From positions 5,084,001-5,148,000 of the forward strand of contig NZ_CP016594.1 in NCBI RefSeq assembly GCF_001698225.1: a stretch of DNA of 64,000 nt, written 5' to 3'. Position numbers and translations under genes: made by a program. The DNA is from Gordonia terrae (lineage in GTDB: Bacteria > Actinomycetota > Actinomycetes > Mycobacteriales > Mycobacteriaceae). The notes under the pieces were generated by a model, which was not told the DNA's origin, did no database searches, and was given only the letters and a program-made list of their open reading frames with translations. Below are positions 1 through 9,356 of the stretch, piece by piece; position 1 is the stretch's first letter, and every line of letters starts with the position of its first letter.

Positions 1-977
1 GTTCGCTCGCCGTCTGCCCTGATCCCTGTCGGTCGCTCGGTTACGAGCCGCATCGCCGGGAACAGCGGGGCCGTCGGGTCGTCGGCGCGCGGGTGCTCGG
101 CAAAGTAGCTCCGCAGTAGGTCGACCGTCGCCGGGGTCAGCGGTACGCGCCTGCGACTGCCTCGGGTCTTCGGGGCGACGTAGCTGGCGACGCCGTCGAC
201 GACCTGCACAGTCCGCTCCACGCGCAACGTTCCCGGCTTCGGGCGGGCGTTCGGGTTCATCGTCCGCGTGGGCAGCTCGACGTCCCCAACCTGCAACCCC
301 GCCAGCTCCGCTGCCCGCAGTCCGGCCCATGCTGCAACGTGGACGTAGACGTTGAACGGCCAGGGCGTCGCTGCGACGAGGGCGGCAACCTGAGTCGCGG
401 TGAGGAACTGGGCCGGGTCGTCTACGACGCCAGCCGTGCCGCCCGTTGCGCTGTGCTCCCCAGGTAGGCGCACGTAATCGGCCGGGTTCGTCGTCAACCG
501 ACCGTCCACCACTGCCTGCGCCAACACCATCCTCACCAGGAAGTAGGCATGCCGGACGGTGCTCGGCTTCTTCCCCGCCCTCACCAGCAGATCGACCCAC
601 TCCGAGATGCGCTCGCGCTTGATTGCGTTGAGCGGGTAGCCGCCGAACACCGCGTCAATCCCCAACGTGCCCATCTCGCCCCGTCGCTCGGTTGCTGGGG
701 CGAGGGCGTACGCGTATCCGCGTCGGGTCGTGGCTTTAAGGTCGTGGCGACTGTCGAGCCATGCCGCCGCCGCTACGCGGAACGTAACGTCACCGGACCT
801 CGGATCGAACGTGGTTCCGCGACGCTGATTGAAGTCGACTGTAGTGGCGTAGGCGTCCGCTTCTTTCCGCGTCCGGAAGCCGCCCTTGGTGCGGTGCTTG
901 CCGTCCGGCGTTCGCCATTTCACTTTGTAGTAGGGCTTGCCGTCCTTCTTGGACGTGAACTTCCTGACCGATGCCAT
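1..977 (-). CDS. int: Tyrosine site-specific integrase, C-terminus cut by the window edge
   Basis: Catalyses integration and excision of the element by tyrosine recombination. I translated 325 residues from the ATG at 977; the frame is open to the edge. Residues 3-46 look like an AP2-type arm-site-binding domain (KFTSKKDGKPYYKVKWR). Residues about 65-170 form the SAM-like core-binding domain. The catalytic domain shows the box I motif AGLRAAEL with Arg221, and the catalytic Lys hairpin APKTRGSRRRVPL with Lys270. The HxxR box and nucleophilic Tyr lie beyond the edge. The start follows the serine recombinase stop (979-981) by one base, so the two are probably co-transcribed. Expected family length is about 380-400 aa. 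Confidence 0.9.
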   Translation of the reverse strand, partial: MASVRKFTSKKDGKPYYKVKWRTPDGKHRTKGGFRTRKEADAYATTVDFNQRRGTTFDPRSGDVTFRVAAAAWLDSRHDLKATTRRGYAYALAPATERRGEMGTLGIDAVFGGYPLNAIKRERISEWVDLLVRAGKKPSTVRHAYFLVRMVLAQAVVDGRLTTNPADYVRLPGEHSATGGTAGVVDDPAQFLTATQVAALVAATPWPFNVYVHVAAWAGLRAAELAGLQVGDVELPTRTMNPNARPKPGTLRVERTVQVVDGVASYVAPKTRGSRRRVPLTPATVDLLRSYFAEHPRADDPTAPLFPAMRLVTERPTGIRADGER

Positions 978-978
978 C

Positions 979-1716
979 TCAGGCCACCCCTTCCCTACTC
1001 AGCACCCGACGAACTGTCGCGTAGTGCCAGCGGTAACCACCACCCGGCGTTGCGATTCCGGCCTCATCGAGCCAGTTAGCGATAGCCTTCGGCCCCAGCC
1101 CTTCCTCGCGGCGCATGCTGACGATCTCCTTCACCACGAGCGGGTCGATACGACTTGGCCGGCCAAGCTTCTTACCCTCGCGCTTCGCTCGGGCCAGCCC
1201 CTCCCTGGTGCGGACGCTGATGCGTCGGCGTTCCTCCGCAGCCACCGCGAGGCGGATGTCGGCGGTGAGTCGCTGGCTGGGTTCGCCGCTGTCCGCGCCC
1301 TCGCAGTCCAGCAGTCGCCAACCATGCAACTCGGCGCGCTTGTAGAGTTCGGCAGCGTCGAGTTGGTCGCGGGTCGCACGGTCTAGTGCCCGCACCAGTA
1401 GCGCATCGGCCATTCCCGCTTCGAGGGCGTTGATCGCGACGGCTCGGCCGTGCATCTCCGCAGCTTTGCCGCCACTCACCACATCGCTTGTAACAGTGAG
1501 CAACTGGTGACCTCGGTCCAGGCAGTACTTGGTCAGGTAATCCTGTTGGGATCGCAGGCCGTAGCCCTTGGTGTCCTGCACGGTTGTTGAAACCCTCACG
1601 TAGCCACTACATTTCAGCGGCTGATACTCGGCCACCTCCGGCTCGGCGGGCTGCGACTTGTCGGCCAAGGCGCGGCGTAACGCCTCCGCTCTGGACGTGG
1701 ACTTGCTCTTGGTCAT
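979..1716 (-). CDS. Small serine recombinase (resolvase/invertase type)
   Basis: A 245-aa serine recombinase. The N-terminal resolvase domain carries YVRVSTTVQ with the nucleophilic Ser43 and the RALDRATRD motif (arginines of the active site). A long helix containing LARAKREGKKLGRP follows, then a C-terminal helix-turn-helix (about residues 195-240, ending in YATVRRVLSR). I chose the ATG at 1716 because AGGAGAG lies 8 bases upstream. The open frame extends to 1854, but that segment is basic, unlike the family, and overlaps a large dyad. It lies directly upstream of the tyrosine integrase. A second recombinase in the same operon is unusual; it could resolve dimers, invert DNA, or be the remnant of another element. 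Confidence 0.85.
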   Translation of the reverse strand: MTKSKSTSRAEALRRALADKSQPAEPEVAEYQPLKCSGYVRVSTTVQDTKGYGLRSQQDYLTKYCLDRGHQLLTVTSDVVSGGKAAEMHGRAVAINALEAGMADALLVRALDRATRDQLDAAELYKRAELHGWRLLDCEGADSGEPSQRLTADIRLAVAAEERRRISVRTREGLARAKREGKKLGRPSRIDPLVVKEIVSMRREEGLGPKAIANWLDEAGIATPGGGYRWHYATVRRVLSREGVA

Positions 1717-1758
1717 CGTGCTCTCTCCTGCGTCTCGGCATAGTGCGTGGTGGACGGG

Positions 1759-1797
1759 CGTCGGAAACGTGAAACGGTCGTTACCACGGTTCCGACG
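1759..1797. promoter_or_regulatory. 39-bp imperfect dyad upstream of the serine recombinase
   Basis: Arms CGTCGGAA-a-CGTG (1759-1771) and CACG-g-TTCCGACG (1785-1797) pair with one mismatch. The interval holds a second small dyad, AACG-GT-CGTT (1773-1782). The site lies 43-81 bases before the recombinase ATG. It could be an operator, a recombination (res-like) subsite, or an RNA hairpin. The structure is seen directly; the function is inference. Confidence 0.5.
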
Positions 1798-2167
1798 ACG
1801 CAGACGGTACGCCACCTCAACACTGCCGATACGTCCACAGTTGTTCGGTGGCAACTTATTTCGTGCCCCTTAGGTCCCGCCCGGACCCTCCGAGTCTCGC
1901 TACGATCGCGGTTCTACCCAGGTAGCTCCAACGCTCCCCACGTTGAACGGTCGGTCGGCCTACCGGGAAGGGTCCGGCGTCTCAGCGGCTTAGCGTGGCG
2001 ATGGACGTGGCCGGCGTGGGGCGGATAGCCGAGGCGGGTCGGTGCGGGAGGTTATCGACGGCCAGACGGAAACAGGCATTCAAGTCGGTGACTAGATCGG
2101 TCGCCAGCAGCTCGCCCAGCGCGAAGTCGCTTAGATTCCCTCTCGCGCGAAGCCCCCTCCTCTTCTT
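1798..2167. other. Intergenic region, no gene recognised
   Basis: About 370 bases lie between the recombinase leader and the CTAG array. I find no reading frame with a ribosome site and no recognisable RNA. It probably contains the promoter of the recombinase-integrase pair on the minus strand, but I cannot point to convincing -35/-10 boxes. Confidence 0.4.
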
Positions 2168-2272
2168 CTAGTTCTTCTAGGGGTATCTAGTTCCTCTAGG
2201 TGCCCCTGGGTACTTCTGGACGTCTCATCGGTACGTTTTCTTGGTCCGACCTAGGGGACCTAGCGGCACTAG
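2168..2272. repeat. CTAG array with about 9-bp phasing (iteron-like)
   Basis: CTAG occurs at 2168, 2177, 2187, 2196 and again at 2251, 2260, 2269, with spacings of 9, 10, 9 and then 9, 9. Degenerate CTGG units continue the phase at 2206 and 2216. CTAG is normally rare in such GC-rich genomes. The array lies downstream of the prim-pol/ATPase gene and upstream of the recombinase operon, where an origin (iterons) or a repressor cluster would be plausible. Pattern seen directly; role inferred. Confidence 0.6.
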
Positions 2273-2283
2273 GGGAAGGGGTA

Positions 2284-2319
2284 CGAGAAGGGGGAAACCC
2301 TTTCCCCTACGCCTTCTCG
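2284..2319 (-). terminator. Hairpin after the prim-pol/ATPase gene
   Basis: Inverted repeat CGAGAAG GGGGAAA-CCC-TTTCCCC-TACGC-CTTCTCG gives 14 base pairs with one 5-base bulge. It begins about 10 bases after the stop codon of the minus-strand gene ending at 2329. There is no T-tract, so it may be a non-canonical actinobacterial terminator or a structure linked to the neighbouring CTAG array. Confidence 0.5.
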
Positions 2320-2328
2320 GGTGCGCTT

Positions 2329-4581
2329 TCAGCCGCTCCCCGTCCGGTTCGAGTCGTCTCCCGGTTTCATGCGGCCAGGCAGGGACCACGTCCAGTGGTC
2401 AATCTGCATGCTCTCACCCCTCCGCACCGGCGTCTTGTTGACCAACAAGCGTTTCGCCGCATTGGTCACTGTCCGCTCGGAACATCCCGCCTCGGCCGCC
2501 ACAGCCCTACGAACCTCCTTCGCATCGCGGGGCCCATCAGCCAACATCTCTCGAATCAGACGCTCAGCTTCATCGCGGGCGGGAGCACTGGTCCGAGCAT
2601 CAGTCTTGGCTCCGTCCGCCCCGACGAGTTGGTCTGCGCTTTCCTCTAGAACACCGGCCCAGCGGACGACCGGCGAGTCTGGATCGCTAGGGCTGGAGCG
2701 TAGTTCGTACCCCATCGTCTTCGGTGCTCGGGCAAGGTTCCCTTTGGTGGACGCGAGGGCGTGTGTTGCGTTGGTGTTCTCGCGATCCTCGCTCGGGTCC
2801 AGCTTCGCCGCCAACAGGACCGACCTCGCGAGCGCTGTAAAGGCGATAGATCCTCCCCCACGATGCTTCGCGCTCATACCCGTGCCCTTGTTGAGGTGGC
2901 GCACGAGGACGATCGCAGCTCCAGTTTGCTCAGCGACATCCGCGAGGGTCATGAGCGCCTTGCGGTTTGCGGTATCGCTACCTGGCTTTACCGCGTCCGA
3001 CATGAAGGCGCTGATCGGGTCGATCACGACCAGCTTCGCGTCTACCTCTTCGATTGCGCGGCGCAGCTTGTCCACGTCGTCGGGAACGAGGAACGGAATC
3101 GGCTGTCCGTTTGCGTCTCGCGGTCTTGCCATTGCCGAAACATGGTCCAGGTCGGCCTTCGCTGCGCGCAGTCGCGGGACCACCGTGTCGGCTAGGTCAT
3201 CCTCCACGCCCACGAGGACAACAGAGGCCGGGGCGGTCAGCCCTTTCTCGTTGCGGCTAGTGTCGCCGCTGATGTCGACGCGTGGCCACGGGCCACCGTT
3301 GCTCACCATCGCCGCGAGCTTCAGCGTCATGGTCGACTTGCCGACATCTGGTTCGCCCTCGAAGATCGTGAGCTTGCCCAGCGGAATCCAGGGGTGCCAT
3401 AACCATTGCACCTTAGTCGGTGTCACCTGAGCCAGCGACTGCGTGAACTGGCGTCCATCGTCCTGCGGCGGCGGATCGGCGCGTTGACCCCGCCGATGAA
3501 GGCGGTAGACGTTGCCCTTCGGGTTGTCCGGGTGCCACATGCCGCCGGGTGCAAACGCTTCGCGCGCCAACGCCACGTCGTCTTCGCTCCCGATCAAACG
3601 CGCCTTGCGCTCGCGCAGCTCGCTTGGGTCGGTGGATACCACTTGCGCTGCCGCCCACGCTGCGGTCGCTTGAAACTCGCGGTCGTCGGGACGTCTACGC
3701 CTCCCCTTCAATTCGTTCTCGTCGCCGTCGTCCGGGCGGAACGCGTCCTCGAACGCGGCACGGAGCCTTTCGGTCGCTTCCCGCGCGGGGTACAAACCCG
3801 CCATCGCATCGCGATAGGCCATCGGAATCACTTTTACCAGCGCGTCATGTCTCGACATCCCCTCGGCGACCATCGCGGAGAACTTGTCTAGGGGCACCTC
3901 AAGCAACTCGGGACGCGCGGAGTCCACATAGCTGTCGAGGAAGTCGGTCAACTCCTGCCGTGCCAGCGGTGCAGCCTGTACCCCCGATGCCTCCCGTAGA
4001 CACTCGCGCAACCGCTTGGGGAGGCGAGGGACCGGCCCCGTCTTCACCCAGCGGTACTCACCGTCGTTGTCGACGTGCTCGGTGGGAGCGACGATGATGA
4101 CGCCGTTCTTTCCGCGAACCTCACCGAACTGCGCGAAGGCTCCGGCGCTGTTGCCAAAGTTGCCGTCGTTGACGAACAGGTAGTGCCCGCGATCAGGGTT
4201 AGACGAGTCCGCGCGGCGGGACCGCTGCGATACGCCTTGGCGTAGTGCCGCAACAAGTTCGTCGGGCAGGTCAGCCAGAGGTTTATCGAGATCGAATACA
4301 ACCAGACCGCTCCGGCCAACGTGCAGAGCTATTCCGTAGTCGGGATTCCTACCCCACCAGCGCCGCACTACAACTGGGTCGCGGCTGGACTTCTCGTGCC
4401 ACCCCTTGCCGACGACACTGCCGGGATTCTTGGTGCCCGGCTTCACAGGCAGGACGTAGAACCCAGCCGCGGCGTACGCCTGGGCAGCATCACCGTTGAC
4501 GACAATTCCCGACACATCGGGGACGGTAGGTGGTCGGGACTCGTCGTCAGCTGCATCGAACGACGGGTTAGGTAGGATCAT
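2329..4581 (-). CDS. Bifunctional primase-polymerase / AAA+ ATPase replication protein
   Basis: 750 aa; probably initiates replication of the excised element. Residues about 25-205 form an archaeo-eukaryotic prim-pol domain: YVLPVKPGTKNP, the catalytic acid pair in VVFDLDKP, and GHYLF. A middle region of about 150 residues follows. The C-terminal half is a RecA/RepA-like ATPase with Walker A GEPDVGKST (about residues 408-416) and Walker B KLVVIDPISAFM (about 520). It ends in a winged-helix-like segment (about 680-735, CSERTVTNAAKRLLV). Fusions of this kind are common in phage satellites and plasmids. It lies downstream of the excisionase and Cys-pair genes. A weak AGAAAG precedes the ATG. Confidence 0.88.
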   Translation of the reverse strand: MILPNPSFDAADDESRPPTVPDVSGIVVNGDAAQAYAAAGFYVLPVKPGTKNPGSVVGKGWHEKSSRDPVVVRRWWGRNPDYGIALHVGRSGLVVFDLDKPLADLPDELVAALRQGVSQRSRRADSSNPDRGHYLFVNDGNFGNSAGAFAQFGEVRGKNGVIIVAPTEHVDNDGEYRWVKTGPVPRLPKRLRECLREASGVQAAPLARQELTDFLDSYVDSARPELLEVPLDKFSAMVAEGMSRHDALVKVIPMAYRDAMAGLYPAREATERLRAAFEDAFRPDDGDENELKGRRRRPDDREFQATAAWAAAQVVSTDPSELRERKARLIGSEDDVALAREAFAPGGMWHPDNPKGNVYRLHRRGQRADPPPQDDGRQFTQSLAQVTPTKVQWLWHPWIPLGKLTIFEGEPDVGKSTMTLKLAAMVSNGGPWPRVDISGDTSRNEKGLTAPASVVLVGVEDDLADTVVPRLRAAKADLDHVSAMARPRDANGQPIPFLVPDDVDKLRRAIEEVDAKLVVIDPISAFMSDAVKPGSDTANRKALMTLADVAEQTGAAIVLVRHLNKGTGMSAKHRGGGSIAFTALARSVLLAAKLDPSEDRENTNATHALASTKGNLARAPKTMGYELRSSPSDPDSPVVRWAGVLEESADQLVGADGAKTDARTSAPARDEAERLIREMLADGPRDAKEVRRAVAAEAGCSERTVTNAAKRLLVNKTPVRRGESMQIDHWTWSLPGRMKPGDDSNRTGSG

Positions 4582-4647
4582 GTTGCGAGTCTTTCTGTTG
4601 CGCAGATGGATTCGAAACCAGGTTGCCCGCTCCCTGGATCAAAGTCG

Positions 4648-4689
4648 CTGGCGTCCACAGAGCTTCATCCCGGCCTCTGTGGACGCCAG
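4648..4689 (-). terminator. 15-bp perfect hairpin between the 327-aa gene and the prim-pol gene
   Basis: CTGGCGTCCACAGAG (4648-4662) is the exact reverse complement of 4675-4689, with a 12-base loop. It sits 25 bases past the stop of the gene ending at 4714 and about 70 bases before the prim-pol start. It probably separates the two transcripts, partly or fully. No T-run follows on the minus strand. Confidence 0.65.
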
Positions 4690-4713
4690 TCGGCTTCTAC
4701 GGGCTGGCGAAGG

Positions 4714-5697
4714 CTAGAGCCATCGGTCCTCAAACCACCCGTGATCGTCGTGGAAACCATCGTTGCGAACGACATCCAGAGAGTTGTCTAGTAGCTTCAG
4801 CTCGTAGACGTCGGTCGCGTCGCATAGGCACGTGGAGCAGATCGGCAGAACATGAATCCGTTGCCCTCGGCGTACGACCACCCCGCCCCAGTCCGGCGCT
4901 CGGTCCCCTCCTGCGCGCTCACAGAAGATGCATGTTGAAGCGAAGCGGTGCATCAGCCAAGAGACGAGCCTCCGGACCGACCATGCCTCCTGCGGCTCTG
5001 CGTCTTTGCTCGATGCGGGACGCGCCCACGGTTCGGTGTCCTCCGAAAGATCATCGTCGAAGTCTTCGAAGTCGAAATCGAAGTCATCCAAGTCCTCGTC
5101 GCCATCCTCTTCGTCCCTGGGGCGAAGGGGGAGGACAGGGCAGGCCGGACCATCTTCGTCGCGTGGCGAGTTGTCTCGCGGAGGAAGGCAGCTGACGTTG
5201 TCGTACGGCAGCACCGACGCAAACGGGTTCGCAATGGTCGGGAATGCAACCAGCGCACCCCCGACGCACGGCGCAGCAGGATCGTGGAGGATGACCTCCA
5301 GTTGCCCAGCAACACCCAGGACGGCCAGATCAAGCATGCCCTCGTATGTCTCTACCCGATCGGCCCGCAGCAGGGCCGGGTCCGTCGCGTCCCGCAGCTC
5401 GTCCGTCGTGTAGCCGCCGAGACGGAAGTCGAGCATGCACCGTCTGGCCAAGTTCGAGAACATGTACTCCAGCAGCTCTGCCAGGTCCGATGAATCAGGG
5501 TAGGTCACCGGCGTATCCACCACCTCGGCGAGTACCGGACCCACAATTGGATTCGACCTCGCCCCAGGGGAGTACCGCTTGACGTCGCGGAGACTCGCCT
5601 CATCCGCATCCACTTCAGGGTTTGTAGTCCTATGCCGCAAAGCCATGTTCGCCATGGAGGACTTCGCCATAGCCCTCGCACGGCGTTCCGGCGTCAT
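4714..5697 (-). CDS. Unknown 327-aa protein with acidic tract and Cys pairs
   Basis: I do not recognise the family. The ATG at 5697 overlaps the stop of the HTH gene as ATGA, so translation is probably coupled; the frame also opens at 5739 but that would overlap by 46 bases. Residues about 190-240 are extremely acidic (EEDGDEDLDDFDFDFEDFDD). Near the C-terminus CIFC and CSTC pairs, about 36 residues apart, could form a zinc ribbon. Position between an excisionase-like gene and a replication protein suggests a role in element replication or host takeover. An acidic tract could imply DNA mimicry, but that is speculation. Confidence 0.7.
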   Translation of the reverse strand: MTPERRARAMAKSSMANMALRHRTTNPEVDADEASLRDVKRYSPGARSNPIVGPVLAEVVDTPVTYPDSSDLAELLEYMFSNLARRCMLDFRLGGYTTDELRDATDPALLRADRVETYEGMLDLAVLGVAGQLEVILHDPAAPCVGGALVAFPTIANPFASVLPYDNVSCLPPRDNSPRDEDGPACPVLPLRPRDEEDGDEDLDDFDFDFEDFDDDLSEDTEPWARPASSKDAEPQEAWSVRRLVSWLMHRFASTCIFCERAGGDRAPDWGGVVVRRGQRIHVLPICSTCLCDATDVYELKLLDNSLDVVRNDGFHDDHGWFEDRWL

Positions 5698-5942
5698 GCT
5701 GCACCGCCCGTGCCCTCGCGTCGCATACTTTCGAGCCATGCCCTGACATCGTTCTCGCTGTACAGGTTTCGGTTCGCGACACGGTACGTGGGCAGATGTC
5801 CGTCTATCGTTTGCCAGCGCACGAATCGTTCCGTGATAGCTGGTACCCCAAGCGCTCTGCAGAACTCCACGACGCCCTGGCGGTTCATCGTAGGCAGCGT
5901 GGGATCAGATTCGGTAGATAGAGGTGGTCGGATTTCAGTCAT
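5694..5942 (-). CDS. Excisionase-like / AlpA-type HTH DNA-binding protein
   Basis: 82 aa. The core GVVEFCRALGVPAITERFVRWQTIDGHLPTYRVANRNLYSENDVRAWLES fits a MerR/AlpA-like winged helix used by recombination directionality factors: a helix-turn-helix followed by a short wing and a final helix. It is the first gene of a coupled pair with the 327-aa gene (ATGA overlap). Its ribosome site GAGGGG lies in a 13-bp palindrome just upstream. It probably directs excision with the integrase, or regulates the replication genes. The role is inferred from size, fold pattern and position. Confidence 0.7.
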   Translation of the reverse strand: MTEIRPPLSTESDPTLPTMNRQGVVEFCRALGVPAITERFVRWQTIDGHLPTYRVANRNLYSENDVRAWLESMRREGTGGAA

Positions 5943-5946
5943 GATC

Positions 5947-5959
5947 GAGGGGTCCCCTC
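5947..5959 (-). promoter_or_regulatory. Palindrome covering the ribosome site of the HTH gene
   Basis: GAGGGG-T-CCCCTC is a perfect 13-base palindrome 4 bases upstream of the start codon at 5942. The only purine-rich ribosome site (GAGGGG) is inside it. It may act as an operator or as an RNA hairpin that limits translation. Confidence 0.4.
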
Positions 5960-6328
5960 AGGCCAGCGCCGCCCGCAAACAGCGGCAAGTCAACAAGGAT
6001 TGATGACCCTGGGCGTGACGCGACCAACCCGGCTCGCCCTATCCTCGCTGCGCTGGATTCCGTCACCCTTTCGGGGCGTCTCCAGGGCCTGCGACGCGCG
6101 TTCGTTCGCTAATGGAGGGCCTTTGCCTACCTCGGGTACTTTCCGAAGCCGCCTCTAACTATACCGCCATCGATTCGGAGTCGTAGCTCTTCCGTTCGCT
6201 GGGATCACACTGCAGCACAGCACTTATCCCAGATACTCACTTCTGAGGCTTTCGCGCCGGTAGCCACGTACCGACCCAAAATCTCGACTCGCCAGAGGGC
6301 GACTCCTGATATGACGCAGATCACACGG
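5960..6328. other. Intergenic region, no gene recognised
   Basis: About 370 bases between the HTH gene and the 89-aa gene. Short frames exist on both strands, but none has a ribosome site or family resemblance. A TTGACT on the minus strand near 5988-5993 could be a -35 box for the excisionase operon. Nothing else stands out. Confidence 0.35.
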
Positions 6329-6598
6329 CTACAGCACCCGTCGGACCCGCTTCGTCGGTAGCGGAGCTGTGGGAGGAGGAAGCAACCGAGCTTGCGACTC
6401 GACCGCCTCAGCTGTGGTGTCGCTTGCGACTGTGCCGCGATAGGTGTGTCCACCCTCCACGCTCAGCGGGGTGACGATCGGACCTGGGTTGCCCGGCATG
6501 GCGCCCCGCGCCGGACGATAGGGATCAGTCGTGTTGCGGCGACCGTTCGACCGCCCCGTCGAGAACTCCGATTCGCCGGGGTCTTGTGAGCGACGCAT
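6329..6598 (-). CDS. Unknown 89-aa protein downstream of the capsid gene
   Basis: Small basic protein without a recognised domain. It is Pro/Gly-rich in the middle (PYRPARGAMPGNPGPIV) and ends in PPPTAPLPTKRVRRVL. It is supported by a near-perfect ribosome site, AAGGAGA, 4 bases before the ATG at 6598. It follows the capsid gene by 85 bases with a hairpin in between. It could be a decoration or capsid-accessory protein by position, but there is no sequence evidence for this. Confidence 0.6.
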   Translation of the reverse strand: MRRSQDPGESEFSTGRSNGRRNTTDPYRPARGAMPGNPGPIVTPLSVEGGHTYRGTVASDTTAEAVESQARLLPPPTAPLPTKRVRRVL

Positions 6599-6617
6599 TG
6601 TGTCTCCTTAGATGGGT

Positions 6618-6668
6618 CTGCCCCGCCTCGGTTGAGCTCGGGGAGGTGAGCTAGCCGGGGCGGGGCAG
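6618..6668 (-). terminator. Hairpin between the capsid gene and the 89-aa gene
   Basis: CTGCCCCGCCTCGG (6618-6631) pairs with CCGGGGCGGGGCAG (6655-6668), 13 of 14 bases, loop 23. It lies 16 bases after the capsid stop. It may terminate or attenuate, lowering expression of the downstream 89-aa gene relative to capsid. Confidence 0.55.
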
Positions 6669-6683
6669 GTTTCGAATGCCGGG

Positions 6684-7850
6684 TCAGACTGCGAACGTGG
6701 GCGGTTCGTAGTCGCCCGTCGCCTTCACCTGGATTACAGCGGCCGCACCGCGACGACGGGTGCCAACACCGAACGACCTCTGGAGGTAGGAGTTCTGGAG
6801 AGGGTACTTCTCCGCCCCTGGGATGACCCGCAAGCCGTGATAGGCGGTGTTGTTGTGCTGCCGAATCGCGACCGGGTTGACTTCCGAGTTGGGTCCGCCC
6901 GTCGCCGCGACTGCCACATACCCGGCGGGAATCAGGTTCGATGTGATTACGAGCGCGTGCCCGTAGCTTCCGAAGACTGGCAGACCCTTGTAGGTTCCGG
7001 GTGCCTGCTGACCGACGATCGTCTCCTCAGTGAGATATGCCGGAGCTGACTCCGAAAGCACAAAGTCGTACTTGGCAATTGGGCCACCGTCACGGGACTC
7101 TTCACCGCGTCGGAATGTCGCGATCACGTCCGCATCGAATTCGTTGCACAAGATAATGAGCTGGGACCCGGCCACAGGGCCATAACCCTTGGACGTAATG
7201 GTCTTGATGGCCTCTTCGAGGTCCCCGGAGTCGATTGTGTTGGCACCGCTGACGAGGTAGTGCGACGTGGTTTCGGGAAATTCAACTCCCATGTATGGCG
7301 GCGGGGCGATCCCGTCGTTGCCGTTGTAGAGGCCATATACAGTCGTTGCATCCTCATTGGCGCCGGGAGTTGGGTCAAACAACCGATTCAGCACAGTCCC
7401 GGTCAGCAAGCGGTTGTCGGCCTCGATTGCCTGAGTGAGGTTGGCGTCGAGCTGCCTCGAATCGGCGTCGCGCAGGAACTTCCATGTCGTGCCCAGGCGC
7501 AGATCGTAGTCGTGAAAGGTGTAGCCGAGGCGCAGGACTTCCGCCTCAGCACGCCCCGATACCGGAACACCAAACTCGGACGCTTCCTCAAACTTCATCT
7601 GCGCCAACGTCTGCGGCACGGCCTCGCCTCGCAGCGTCGTATAGAAGCTCAGCAGCGACGCAATCGAGGTGCGCTCCTCGTTCCAGACGTCGAGCACCGC
7701 CGCCCACTCGTCCCAGATGACGTTGAGGTCGATGCCGTCGGCGGTGGAGTTGACGAGGACGTCAGCCTGGTTGCTGATACCTCGGCCTCGCCGGACTTCC
7801 GCACCGAAGATGGGCGCGAGTGCGAGCTGGCGGATGGATTGCACGGACAT
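6684..7850 (-). CDS. Phage major capsid protein-like (HK97-type)
   Basis: 388 aa with the composition and length of a tailed-phage major capsid protein. Its C-terminal half shows features typical of the HK97 fold, such as TYKGLPVFGSYGHALVITSNLIPAGYVAVAATGG and HGLRVIPGAEKYPLQNSYLQRSFG. A strong AGGGGAGA site precedes the ATG. No prohead protease, portal or terminase lies nearby. A lone capsid gene in a small integrative element suggests redirection of a helper phage's head size, or a defective remnant. The capsid call is from sequence resemblance; the role is inference. Confidence 0.72.
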   Translation of the reverse strand: MSVQSIRQLALAPIFGAEVRRGRGISNQADVLVNSTADGIDLNVIWDEWAAVLDVWNEERTSIASLLSFYTTLRGEAVPQTLAQMKFEEASEFGVPVSGRAEAEVLRLGYTFHDYDLRLGTTWKFLRDADSRQLDANLTQAIEADNRLLTGTVLNRLFDPTPGANEDATTVYGLYNGNDGIAPPPYMGVEFPETTSHYLVSGANTIDSGDLEEAIKTITSKGYGPVAGSQLIILCNEFDADVIATFRRGEESRDGGPIAKYDFVLSESAPAYLTEETIVGQQAPGTYKGLPVFGSYGHALVITSNLIPAGYVAVAATGGPNSEVNPVAIRQHNNTAYHGLRVIPGAEKYPLQNSYLQRSFGVGTRRRGAAAVIQVKATGDYEPPTFAV

Positions 7851-8059
7851 GGTTGTCTCCCCTGCTGTTTGGGTGGCGGGATCTGAGGGTTGCTCTAGCT
7901 CCAGGCCACCAGCCGAGGGAGTTGCTACGCACCGCGCAGCGGGATGAGCGGAGTATGAGGTGAGCCTGTCGCCTCCGACGACGGCTCGGCCCTAACTCTA
8001 CACGCGTCGATGACGAACTAGATTGTCATGCGGTAGTTTTGGCGTTGGCCACGACTCTC
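7851..8059. other. Intergenic region between the HNH and capsid genes
   Basis: About 210 bases. It should contain the capsid promoter on the minus strand and the end of the HNH transcript. I see no gene. There is a short imperfect inverted repeat around 7963-7990 but no clear terminator. Confidence 0.35.
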
Positions 8060-9094
8060 TCATTGGATACGAACTTCGAACGAGTACACACTAAGTCGGA
8101 TCTCGCCTGACGTGACCACCAACTCGTGCACTCCGGGAGCCTCAAACTTAATGGACGCGCGAACGGAACGACATACCCTGTTGAGCGGTCCCGTAGGTTC
8201 GGGCACCTCCACATCGATCCTACTGAGGTGTCGTCTGTTTTCTCCGGGGTCCAGCACGGAGACATCGAAGCTCAGCATCGAGTTAGGCTGTGTCGTGCCG
8301 AACTCGACAACCAGCGCAGCGTCTATGATCGTTGCGAACGGCAGTTCGGGAACTCTGTAGTACTCCCAACCTCCACCGAGCAGATGCACGAGCCCATCCG
8401 CGACGGCAACACTGTTCGCTGGGAAGAACACCGGGATCTTCAGCCCAGCAGCGATGTCGTCAGTTTCTACGGTTCTTCCCTCGAACTTGAGAACCCCGCC
8501 GCCACCTCCGCCGCCTCCGGGATAACTCCCCGGCCCGCCTGCAAGGTCAATCGTCATCTCGGCCGCTATATCGTCCGGGAGGCTGCCGATCCCAACAATC
8601 GTCAGGACACCACCCTCACCCCCGCCCCCTAGTGGGTAACCCCCGTCACCCCCCACTTTGAATACGGCGTTACGGAAGTCCATGTGGGTTGCCCCGGCCT
8701 CGTAAACAGCGACTGTCCACTGCAGCGCAGTGATTACCTGCGAGGGTGCGTCTATCGCACCGGCGGCCGCGCCAGCCTCCTCATGCCTACGTTTGATCTC
8801 AACCAGCGCCTCCACAGTGTAGATTTCCAGATTTTCGAGCGCGTCGATCAGCTTGTGGCAGTTGCGGCACAGGAGAACTAGATTGCCAAATCCGTGGCGC
8901 TCCTCGTCCGTTTGACTGTCTAGGTACCGAGGACCACCAGGGTTATGAGCGCGTATGTGGCAGACCTCGCCAAGAATCGTCCCGGTCTCGGATGACACCA
9001 GTTGTGTCGTGCAGTCTGGCATTGCGCACTGGTTCATCGACACTGCGAAGAGCCGCCGAACAACCGCCTCACGCGGACGGGTAAGAGTCGCCAC
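8060..9094 (-). CDS. HNH endonuclease fused to glycine-rich repeats and a C-terminal beta domain; candidate cargo/defence gene
   Basis: 344 aa, GTG start at 9094. Residues about 10-85 form an HNH domain with zinc-type Cys pairs: QCAMPDC, then GEVCHIRAHNPGGPRY and GNLVLLCRNCHKLID, containing the catalytic His. A central region (about 145-215) has two related glycine-rich units, YPLGGGGEGGVL and YPGGGGGGGGVL, each followed by a DDIAA motif. The last 130 residues look like an all-beta sandwich that recalls DUF6941, but I cannot confirm it. It lies at the attachment-site end of the element, where cargo and anti-phage genes often sit. Nuclease activity is likely from the motif; the defence role is inference. 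Confidence 0.75.
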   Translation of the reverse strand: MATLTRPREAVVRRLFAVSMNQCAMPDCTTQLVSSETGTILGEVCHIRAHNPGGPRYLDSQTDEERHGFGNLVLLCRNCHKLIDALENLEIYTVEALVEIKRRHEEAGAAAGAIDAPSQVITALQWTVAVYEAGATHMDFRNAVFKVGGDGGYPLGGGGEGGVLTIVGIGSLPDDIAAEMTIDLAGGPGSYPGGGGGGGGVLKFEGRTVETDDIAAGLKIPVFFPANSVAVADGLVHLLGGGWEYYRVPELPFATIIDAALVVEFGTTQPNSMLSFDVSVLDPGENRRHLSRIDVEVPEPTGPLNRVCRSVRASIKFEAPGVHELVVTSGEIRLSVYSFEVRIQ

Positions 9095-9311
9095 CAGTTC
9101 GATTCTAGGGACTCGATCCAGAACGCCGACGCGTATCGGGGCCGCGCAGGGGCCGCGTCCGGGAGCGAATCCCAGCCGTCCGGGACCGAATCCGGGGCGT
9201 CCCGAAGCGAGCCGGAAGCGACCTCATTACCTGGTCTGACCAGCGCTTACGCGCGTCCCGCCGAGGCGTCTACCTGCACTGACTCGAACCCACGTGCGGA
9301 CCCTGAAAATT

Positions 9312-9356
9312 CTTCCCAAGCTGAATACGCGGGTTCGATTCCCGTCATCGGCTCCA
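9312..9356 (+). other. Attachment site: 3' part of tRNA-Gly(CCC)
   Basis: The 45 bases form exactly the 3' part of a tRNA. They hold the anticodon loop TTCCCAA (9313-9319, anticodon CCC), the 3' anticodon strand GCTGA, variable loop ATAC, T-arm GCGGG-TTCGATT-CCCGT (9329-9345), acceptor strand CATCGGC (9346-9352), discriminator T and encoded CCA (9354-9356). The matching 5' half is absent upstream, so it is not a functional tRNA. Tyrosine integrases commonly recombine at this part of tRNA genes and leave such a duplicate at the distal end of the element. Confidence 0.9.

Follow-up and report, generated by a model that had tools for sequence, protein, structure and literature searches.

What does a single phage capsid gene do in a bacterial element that has none of the partner genes of a phage head? 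The question is raised by the left end of a 64,000-nucleotide stretch of the Gordonia terrae chromosome (the window, G000:C1:5084001-5148000, from a one-contig genome of 5.70 Mb), which is occupied by an integrated element with an integrase, a serine recombinase, a replication protein and a lone major capsid gene. The most probable answer, to which we assign a probability of about 0.7, is that the element belongs to a widespread Mycobacteriales family of integrated phage satellites and supplies its own shell protein to divert apparently virulent helper phages. Its satellite nature is well supported by the attachment (att) sites that bound it, by a conserved family of relatives, by selection on the capsid and by the absence of a resident helper-type phage. 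The initial annotation had suggested a satellite that packages itself in the heads of a helper; the satellite reading is supported on these grounds, and packaging in helper heads is predicted from the genes.

An integrated element in a tRNA-Gly gene

The element lies in a gene for tRNA-Gly(CCC) between two perfect direct repeats of 44 bp (L003:2731-2774 and L003:15312-15355, where L003 is the left flank plus the window stretch and its coordinates are window coordinates plus 6000), spaced 12,581 bp apart. Two relatives (G015 and G047) have the empty site, with flanks that are contiguous at tRNA-Gly and overlap by 44 bases, so chance is ruled out for this boundary. The right end given by the initial annotation, 9356, agrees with attR at 9312-9355; its left end, window position 1, is only the window edge, and attL lies at about window -3269. 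That annotation named, as the finding that would speak against a satellite, a complete set of head, tail and lysis genes next to the window on its left. Such a set was sought and not found; apart from the remainder of the integrase, the region has just small cargo open reading frames (ORFs). The genes that it named are present, with Pfam or PHROG matches for the integrase, serine recombinase, Prim-Pol/AAA_25 protein and capsid and matches below the cut-offs for the helix-turn-helix (HTH) and HNH proteins. The features of the element are listed here by window coordinates unless L003 is given.

1..9355 (whole element G000:C1:5080731-5093355 with both att copies, starting 3.27 kb left of the window): integrated element, 12,581 bp from repeat to repeat
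L003:2731-2774 (about window -3269): attL, the 3' end of tRNA-Gly(CCC), inside the tRNA gene at L003:2702-2774
1..977, minus strand (in full L003:5583-6977): tyrosine integrase, full length 464 aa, truncated at the edge of the window (PF00589, 3.6e-12; phrog_1, 2.1e-59)
979..1854, minus strand: small serine recombinase of the resolvase/invertase type, adjoining the integrase (PF00239, 2.1e-25; PF07508, 3.3e-6)
2329..4581, minus strand: replication protein with Prim-Pol and AAA_25 domains, 750 aa (PF09250, 8.6e-24; PF13481, 6.4e-32)
4714..5739, minus strand: F5/F12-family protein with a Cys-pair motif, up to 341 aa (family in 20/49 loci)
5694..5942, minus strand: 82-aa HTH protein (HTH_17, 8e-4, under the Pfam cut-off)
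6684..7850, minus strand: lone major capsid protein, 388 aa, HK97 fold, Patience/Adjutor type (phrog_3990, 1.5e-105)
8060..9094, minus strand: cargo protein with an N-terminal HNH nuclease and a C-terminal DUF6941-like part (HNH_2, 9.5e-4; DUF6941, 2.8e-5; both just under cut-off)
9312..9355, plus strand (L003:15312-15355): attR, a 44-bp copy of the tRNA-Gly(CCC) 3' end, perfect direct repeat

From attL the order is two ORFs matching parts of phrog_5990, a 126-aa ORF, integrase, serine recombinase, Prim-Pol/AAA_25, F5, HTH, capsid, HNH and attR, and all genes from the integrase through the HNH gene are on the minus strand. Between the described genes the two largest stretches, window 5943-6683 and L003:4275-4993, measure about 0.74 and 0.72 kb. 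The longest ORF of the serine recombinase is 291 aa, and a shorter start is likely. The F5 protein (4714..5739) has no Pfam, PHROG or PADLOC match. The size and fold family of the 82-aa HTH protein suggest an excisionase of the AlpA-like kind. It is unusual for a tyrosine and a serine recombinase to stand side by side in one element, and this neighbourhood recurs across the related elements.

A family of elements without capsid partner genes

A profile of the capsid matched 49 of 401 genomes of the GTDB family, in 12 of its 31 genera, 14 of 397 genomes in an order-wide draw (two from another family) and 3 of 396 in a phylum-wide draw, the three draws overlapping in genomes. Because the capsid is conserved across genera, chance is ruled out for it as well. 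Gene neighbourhoods were compared in 49 loci from 46 genomes, each covering 20 kb or less around the capsid, so that this limit or the end of a contig truncates some; the fragment-only G051, G184 and G205 are left out of the locus count, and L023, L024 and L025, which are the same places as L014, L060 and L057, are counted once. Capsid relatives also occur in M. abscessus and other Mycobacterium. Three genomes (G233, G341 and G197) have two lone-capsid copies each, at separate places.

The capsid is accompanied by a recurrent set of genes. Profiles, built partly from the very loci counted, found the integrase in 38 of the 49 loci, the serine recombinase in 38, Prim-Pol or an alternative replicase in 33, a small-terminase-like protein (F18) in 29, the HTH protein in 25, F5/F12 in 20 and F16 in 19, and the integrase, serine recombinase, replicase and capsid occur together in 30. 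Profile counts were used instead of BLAST clusters, whose locus numbers per family ran higher because single linkage drew in shadow ORFs. F16 is a small protein that adjoins the capsid; two members scanned had no family match at E 0.01.

The genes that a phage of the same type would need around its capsid are missing. Profiles of 13 genes (the capsid and 12 morphogenesis genes) were built from seven phages with homologous capsids, and none of the 12 non-capsid profiles matched in the 49 loci or in L113 and L114; the large terminase subunit, portal, scaffold, minor capsid and tail genes of the Patience/Adjutor type are therefore found in 0/51 bacterial loci. In a leave-one-out control that took in eleven profiles and the capsid (the metalloprotease profile was left out), the held-out phage was matched in 82 of 83 cases, the sole miss being one tape measure. 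Searches of whole genomes for the helper-type large terminase and portal, both of which recover 7/7 held-out phages, found neither in the 49 capsid-bearing genomes, and the portal was found in none of the 401 family genomes (at most three candidates scored per genome among the matches listed). In the genomes drawn, then, no resident phage of the same type accompanies the lone capsid, which suggests that phages of the Patience/Adjutor lineage are virulent.

Perfect repeats of 42-56 bp enclose nine of the 49 loci at a spacing of 4.4 to 12.9 kb, and each time one copy overlaps a tRNA gene. Head genes of unrelated phage types were covered only through PHROG and Pfam, and the 74 proteins of these nine loci show no portal, terminase or tail family in the top 25 (by frequency) of 80 PHROG families or in 25 of 31 Pfam families. 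The poor members of the nine are L021 (a capsid fragment beside pieces of integrase and serine recombinase), L086 (capsid only) and L087 (capsid and an integrase piece). In Lolliginicoccus (L057/L025) nested tRNA-Gly repeats of 55 bp and 48 bp (10,199 and 13,609 bp) have further integrase pieces between them and are possibly two tandem elements at one tRNA. Two identical 1,293-bp direct repeats, probably an insertion sequence, flank the capsid at L077:7661-14366.

A search of IMG/VR by capsid alignment (the single-protein query matched nothing) returned 95 relatives, of which 80 were kept; 78 of these loci have phage head or tail neighbours, L127 has satellite genes and L128 has neither. The longest contig is 10-14 kb in 22 and 14-18 kb in 2 of the best 120 capsid protein clusters, and the same numbers, 22 and 2, apply to the 118 F18 clusters with a value. 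The 10-14 kb contigs could be free or repeat-bounded DNA units, a reading that is given little weight as there was no control gene and some contigs are shared between both lists.

The capsid protein and its phage relatives

Capsid relatives are present in 152 of 50,697 phage records, each below 60% identity with at least 80% of the query covered, and none was found in the plasmid search. These records divide into Mycobacterium (63), Gordonia (46), Microbacterium (38) and others (5). The initial annotation had asked for homology to phage capsids of the same genus; the best match is Gordonia phage LuckyLeo at 45% identity. The solved relatives by sequence are PDB 8giu and 8saj, from phages Patience and Adjutor, and the nearest structures to the capsid (AlphaFold2 model, mean predicted local distance difference test score (pLDDT) 78.5) are phage heads, at 39-40% identity. 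Patience has a pseudo T=7 head whose hexamers are surrounded by a minor coat protein (PMC7150772). The gene just before the capsid comes from a single family in all seven profiled phages (leave-one-out matches at 9e-27 or better); five of the phages have it annotated as a minor capsid protein, and the family has no match in the 49 bacterial loci.

In a maximum-likelihood tree of 63 capsids, the 46 capsids from bacterial loci and the 17 from phages fall on the two sides of one branch (support 98/98), and shuffled labels gave 15.1 changes on average, with 0/500 shuffles as low as 1. The tree is unrooted; the fragments L021 and L093-L096 were left out, L020 was entered with its larger piece, and the L063 and L064 capsids are identical. 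The one-branch separation is in keeping with a single old capture or split, not with prophages decaying repeatedly. Only seven diagnostic columns (80% level) separate element from phage capsids, and no mechanism is read from these. The capsid is under strong purifying selection: by a simple NG86 estimate, the ratio of nonsynonymous to synonymous substitution rates (dN/dS) between the window's element and its nearest relative, that of G. alkanivorans, is 0.063 for the capsid; the serine recombinase (0.092), the integrase (0.131), F5 (0.278) and Prim-Pol (0.494), whose start in L014 is uncertain, all have higher values, and the HTH pair yielded none. Three other capsid pairs gave 0.065, 0.114 and 0.138.

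A small-terminase-like protein in many relatives

F18 resembles the small terminase subunits of the same phages. All five members scanned match phrog_10899, 'terminase small subunit' (3.4e-12, 3.5e-9, 4e-5, 0.0062 and 0.013), and F18 also matches phrog_2538, another small terminase family (best 9e-6). One member of phrog_10899 is phage Damien's annotated small terminase, and the family is related to Troll4 gp2 and Send513 gp1; all three are phages with homologous capsids. Compared with phage small-terminase profiles, satellite F18 gives 98.3% probability (E=2.5e-14, 130 columns), and a C..C..C..HG pattern is invariant in both. Wojtek gp88 has a satellite motif like GGSRAESRxARG; Troll4 and Terapin show a looser form of it and Damien a weak one, and Send513 lacks it. 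Some members are named 'HGGxSTG domain-containing' by NCBI. Counting against a small-terminase identity, a tblastn search with one F18 protein matched 25 other phage records, mostly from Microbacterium and none over more than 80% of the query, and the 20 listed are all annotated as hypothetical. The AlphaFold2 model of the protein is poor (pLDDT 65, predicted template modelling score 0.28), below use for a fold search.

Cargo genes

The N-terminus of the HNH cargo protein near attR matches the PADLOC model PDC-M68A (4.2e-26) and 'Effector endonuclease' and SAVED_HNH models; we take these HNH-effector models to be of the type of the cyclic-oligonucleotide-based anti-phage signalling system (CBASS). 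The gene is possibly one for defence. Farther left, at L003:2977-4274 (3.0 to 1.7 kb from the window), the two parts of phrog_5990, a 427-aa family of unknown function, are matched by separate ORFs that overlap and lie in different frames (7.5e-34 and 9.2e-38), so this cargo gene looks broken in this strain. The 126-aa ORF at L003:4994-5374 has a weak Ntox33 match (E 0.0093, under the Pfam cut-off) and no PHROG match. The initial annotation had rested its 'potentially new' on two unrecognised proteins and the HNH cargo gene; the HNH gene and the other cargo are not what makes the element interesting.

Proposed mechanism

The cycle would start with infection by an apparently virulent siphophage of the Patience/Adjutor/Lambo type, upon which the tyrosine integrase and the small HTH protein may excise the element. 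The excised element would be replicated by the Prim-Pol/ATPase, and the small serine recombinase may resolve multimers. The satellite shell protein could then join head assembly with the scaffold, portal and minor capsid protein of the helper, replacing or mixing with the helper shell protein and probably altering head size, and the helper large terminase and tail would complete the particle. The closest proven precedent for a lone capsid homologue that acts on helper heads is the Ccm protein of the Staphylococcus aureus pathogenicity island (SaPI) SaPIbov5, and a like action is proposed here. In many relatives the small-terminase-like protein may steer the helper motor to satellite DNA; the window's subtype has no recognisable small terminase and would have to depend on recognition by the helper itself or on some protein not yet recognised.

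A more specific version of this proposal is about evenly balanced between being right and wrong. It holds that the elements are a distinct satellite family of at least a dozen Mycobacteriales genera whose helpers are solely virulent, never-lysogenic phages from a single lineage. Its shell protein and small terminase, both related to that lineage, would form a two-part key, with which the helper's motor, portal, scaffold and tail would be turned to particles whose shell is specified by the satellite and whose DNA is the satellite's; the window's branch would use the shell protein alone.

Several points weigh against a helper-packaged satellite. Mobilisation by a helper is deduced from the genes of an element known here by its sequence. 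The best phage capsid is only 45% identical, and therefore the helper is not pinned to a specific phage. The initial annotation had proposed a search for packaging signals shared with a helper; when the whole element was compared with the 50,697 phage records by blastn, its left 7.0 kb had no phage DNA match and its right 5.5 kb matched 62 records, of which the 60 listed comprise 25 matches to the Prim-Pol gene, 33 to the capsid gene and 2 to the acid-rich part of F5, so that no shared non-coding signal is found among them. By volume scaling, 12.6 kb would suit no obvious smaller head for phages of 56-72 kb; taking a T=7 head for about 70 kb as the reference, a T=3 head would have space for some 19-20 kb and a T=4 head for about 30 kb. 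The top PHROG match of F18, in all five members scanned, is phrog_3678, of unknown function, and F18 is lacking in the window's element and in ten other full-core loci (11/30).

Alternative explanations

A lone capsid could also be a weapon. In an anti-phage island it would be a dominant-negative part or decoy that poisons the assembly of incoming phages, mobility would be due to the integrase only and packaging would be incidental. A capsid without partner genes, an HNH cargo gene with defence-type matches and the failure of blastn to find a packaging signal in phage records all suit such an island, which we consider unlikely since the small-terminase-like protein in 29/49 loci and the replication protein in 33/49 point to packaging and spread. 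The two readings overlap, as satellites block their helpers too. Alternatively, the element may be a capsid-forming phage-inducible chromosomal island (cf-PICI) whose other head genes have diverged beyond recognition. Its own capsid, HNH gene and size are as expected of one, but there is little room for further genes in the two largest gaps, and the proteins of the nine repeat-bounded loci showed no portal, terminase or tail family in the families covered. This explanation is very unlikely.

Broken relatives exist, with a capsid that is interrupted in L020 and in fragments in L021 and L093-L096, and L086 and L094 show a capsid without another core gene, as a decayed prophage that retained one capsid gene by chance would. 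Such an origin is hardly credible for the family, given that the same gene set recurs in two families of the order, that the capsid is under strong purifying selection and forms a separate lineage on the tree, and that the helper-type portal was not recovered from the family genomes as scored above. Least probable of all is a shell protein domesticated by the host as an encapsulin-like compartment or gene-transfer particle; this is suggested by the HK97 fold and by the encapsulins and gene-transfer-agent capsids among the distant structural matches, but the closest structures are phage heads and an element integrase accompanies the capsid in 38/49 loci. An integrated satellite with its own shell protein thus remains the preferred explanation.

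Satellites can strongly limit phage growth, and to our knowledge few satellite-helper pairs are known in Mycobacteriales. If the satellite works as proposed, it could explain some of the phage resistance among these bacteria. Phages of the likely helper lineage have been isolated on laboratory strains of Gordonia and M. smegmatis, and the heads of Patience and Adjutor are solved. The Lambo- and Terapin-type phages come from G. rubripertincta NRRL B-16540 and G. terrae 3612. Since the capsid and small-terminase homology name this lineage, the choice of helper and the effect of a single foreign shell protein on head assembly are directly testable.

Comparison with known systems

Candidate phage-inducible chromosomal islands (PICIs) of Mycobacterium, phiRv1 and phiRv2 included, consist of an integrase and a major capsid protein, some with terminase or scaffold genes; 62% were also recovered by SatelliteFinder, and their induction by phage was not yet demonstrated there (PMC10654092). 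The element has the combination that defines these candidates, an integration gene and a major capsid gene in one small region, and is like them in its integrase, its own capsid gene and its tRNA-gene att site (theirs for the tyrosine-integrase ones). The finding is thus a variant of candidate satellites already in print, and, with relatives of the capsid present in M. abscessus and further Mycobacterium, some family members may be in data set S4 of PMC10654092. The phiRv-type suggested by the initial annotation is apt as a kind, likened by description and not by sequence. Its 'potentially new' is narrowed by these printed candidates to a multi-genus family and to the pairing of F18 with the capsid; no description of the present multi-genus, single-lineage family or of this pairing was found in open-licence PMC papers. 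Unlike the Mycobacterium candidates, whose capsids are highly diverse (PMC10654092), the present family has one capsid lineage in at least 12 genera, and integrase, serine recombinase and replicase recur as its core, often with a matching small-terminase-like protein.

The closest proven case is SaPIbov5, a cos-type SaPI whose single capsid homologue, Ccm, is built into helper heads, which then become small and isometric. Ccm shares 24% identity with the capsid protein of its helper, phi12, which is induced from a lysogen; the delta domain of Ccm is cleaved, and Ccm by itself cannot form a shell (PMC8569155). The element likewise has a single homologue of a phage capsid (45% to LuckyLeo) without other head genes, and its likely helpers are apparently virulent. 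The cf-PICIs and the Streptomyces satellites MulchRoom and MiniFlayer have their own portal, both terminase subunits and other head genes, and the Streptomyces helpers are called virulent (PMC10690885). The element shares with them a capsid gene of its own and differs from cf-PICIs in having the shell protein only, with the small-terminase-like protein in many relatives; the helper-type portal, large terminase and head connectors that would make it a cf-PICI are absent (0/49 loci; 0/49 genomes for large terminase and portal). A candidate for a small terminase of the redirecting type known from SaPIs and PICIs is F18, which 29/49 relatives have and the window's element lacks.

We know of no capsid gene carried by the Vibrio phage-inducible chromosomal island-like element (PLE). 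Like the element, PLE is an integrated satellite keyed to a lytic phage, ICP1 (PMC10690885), and, unlike the mechanism proposed here, a PLE-encoded protein remodels the coat protein taken from ICP1 (PMC10945586). If the two-part key operates as described, the present family would be an intermediate between satellites without a capsid module and the cf-PICIs with a full one.

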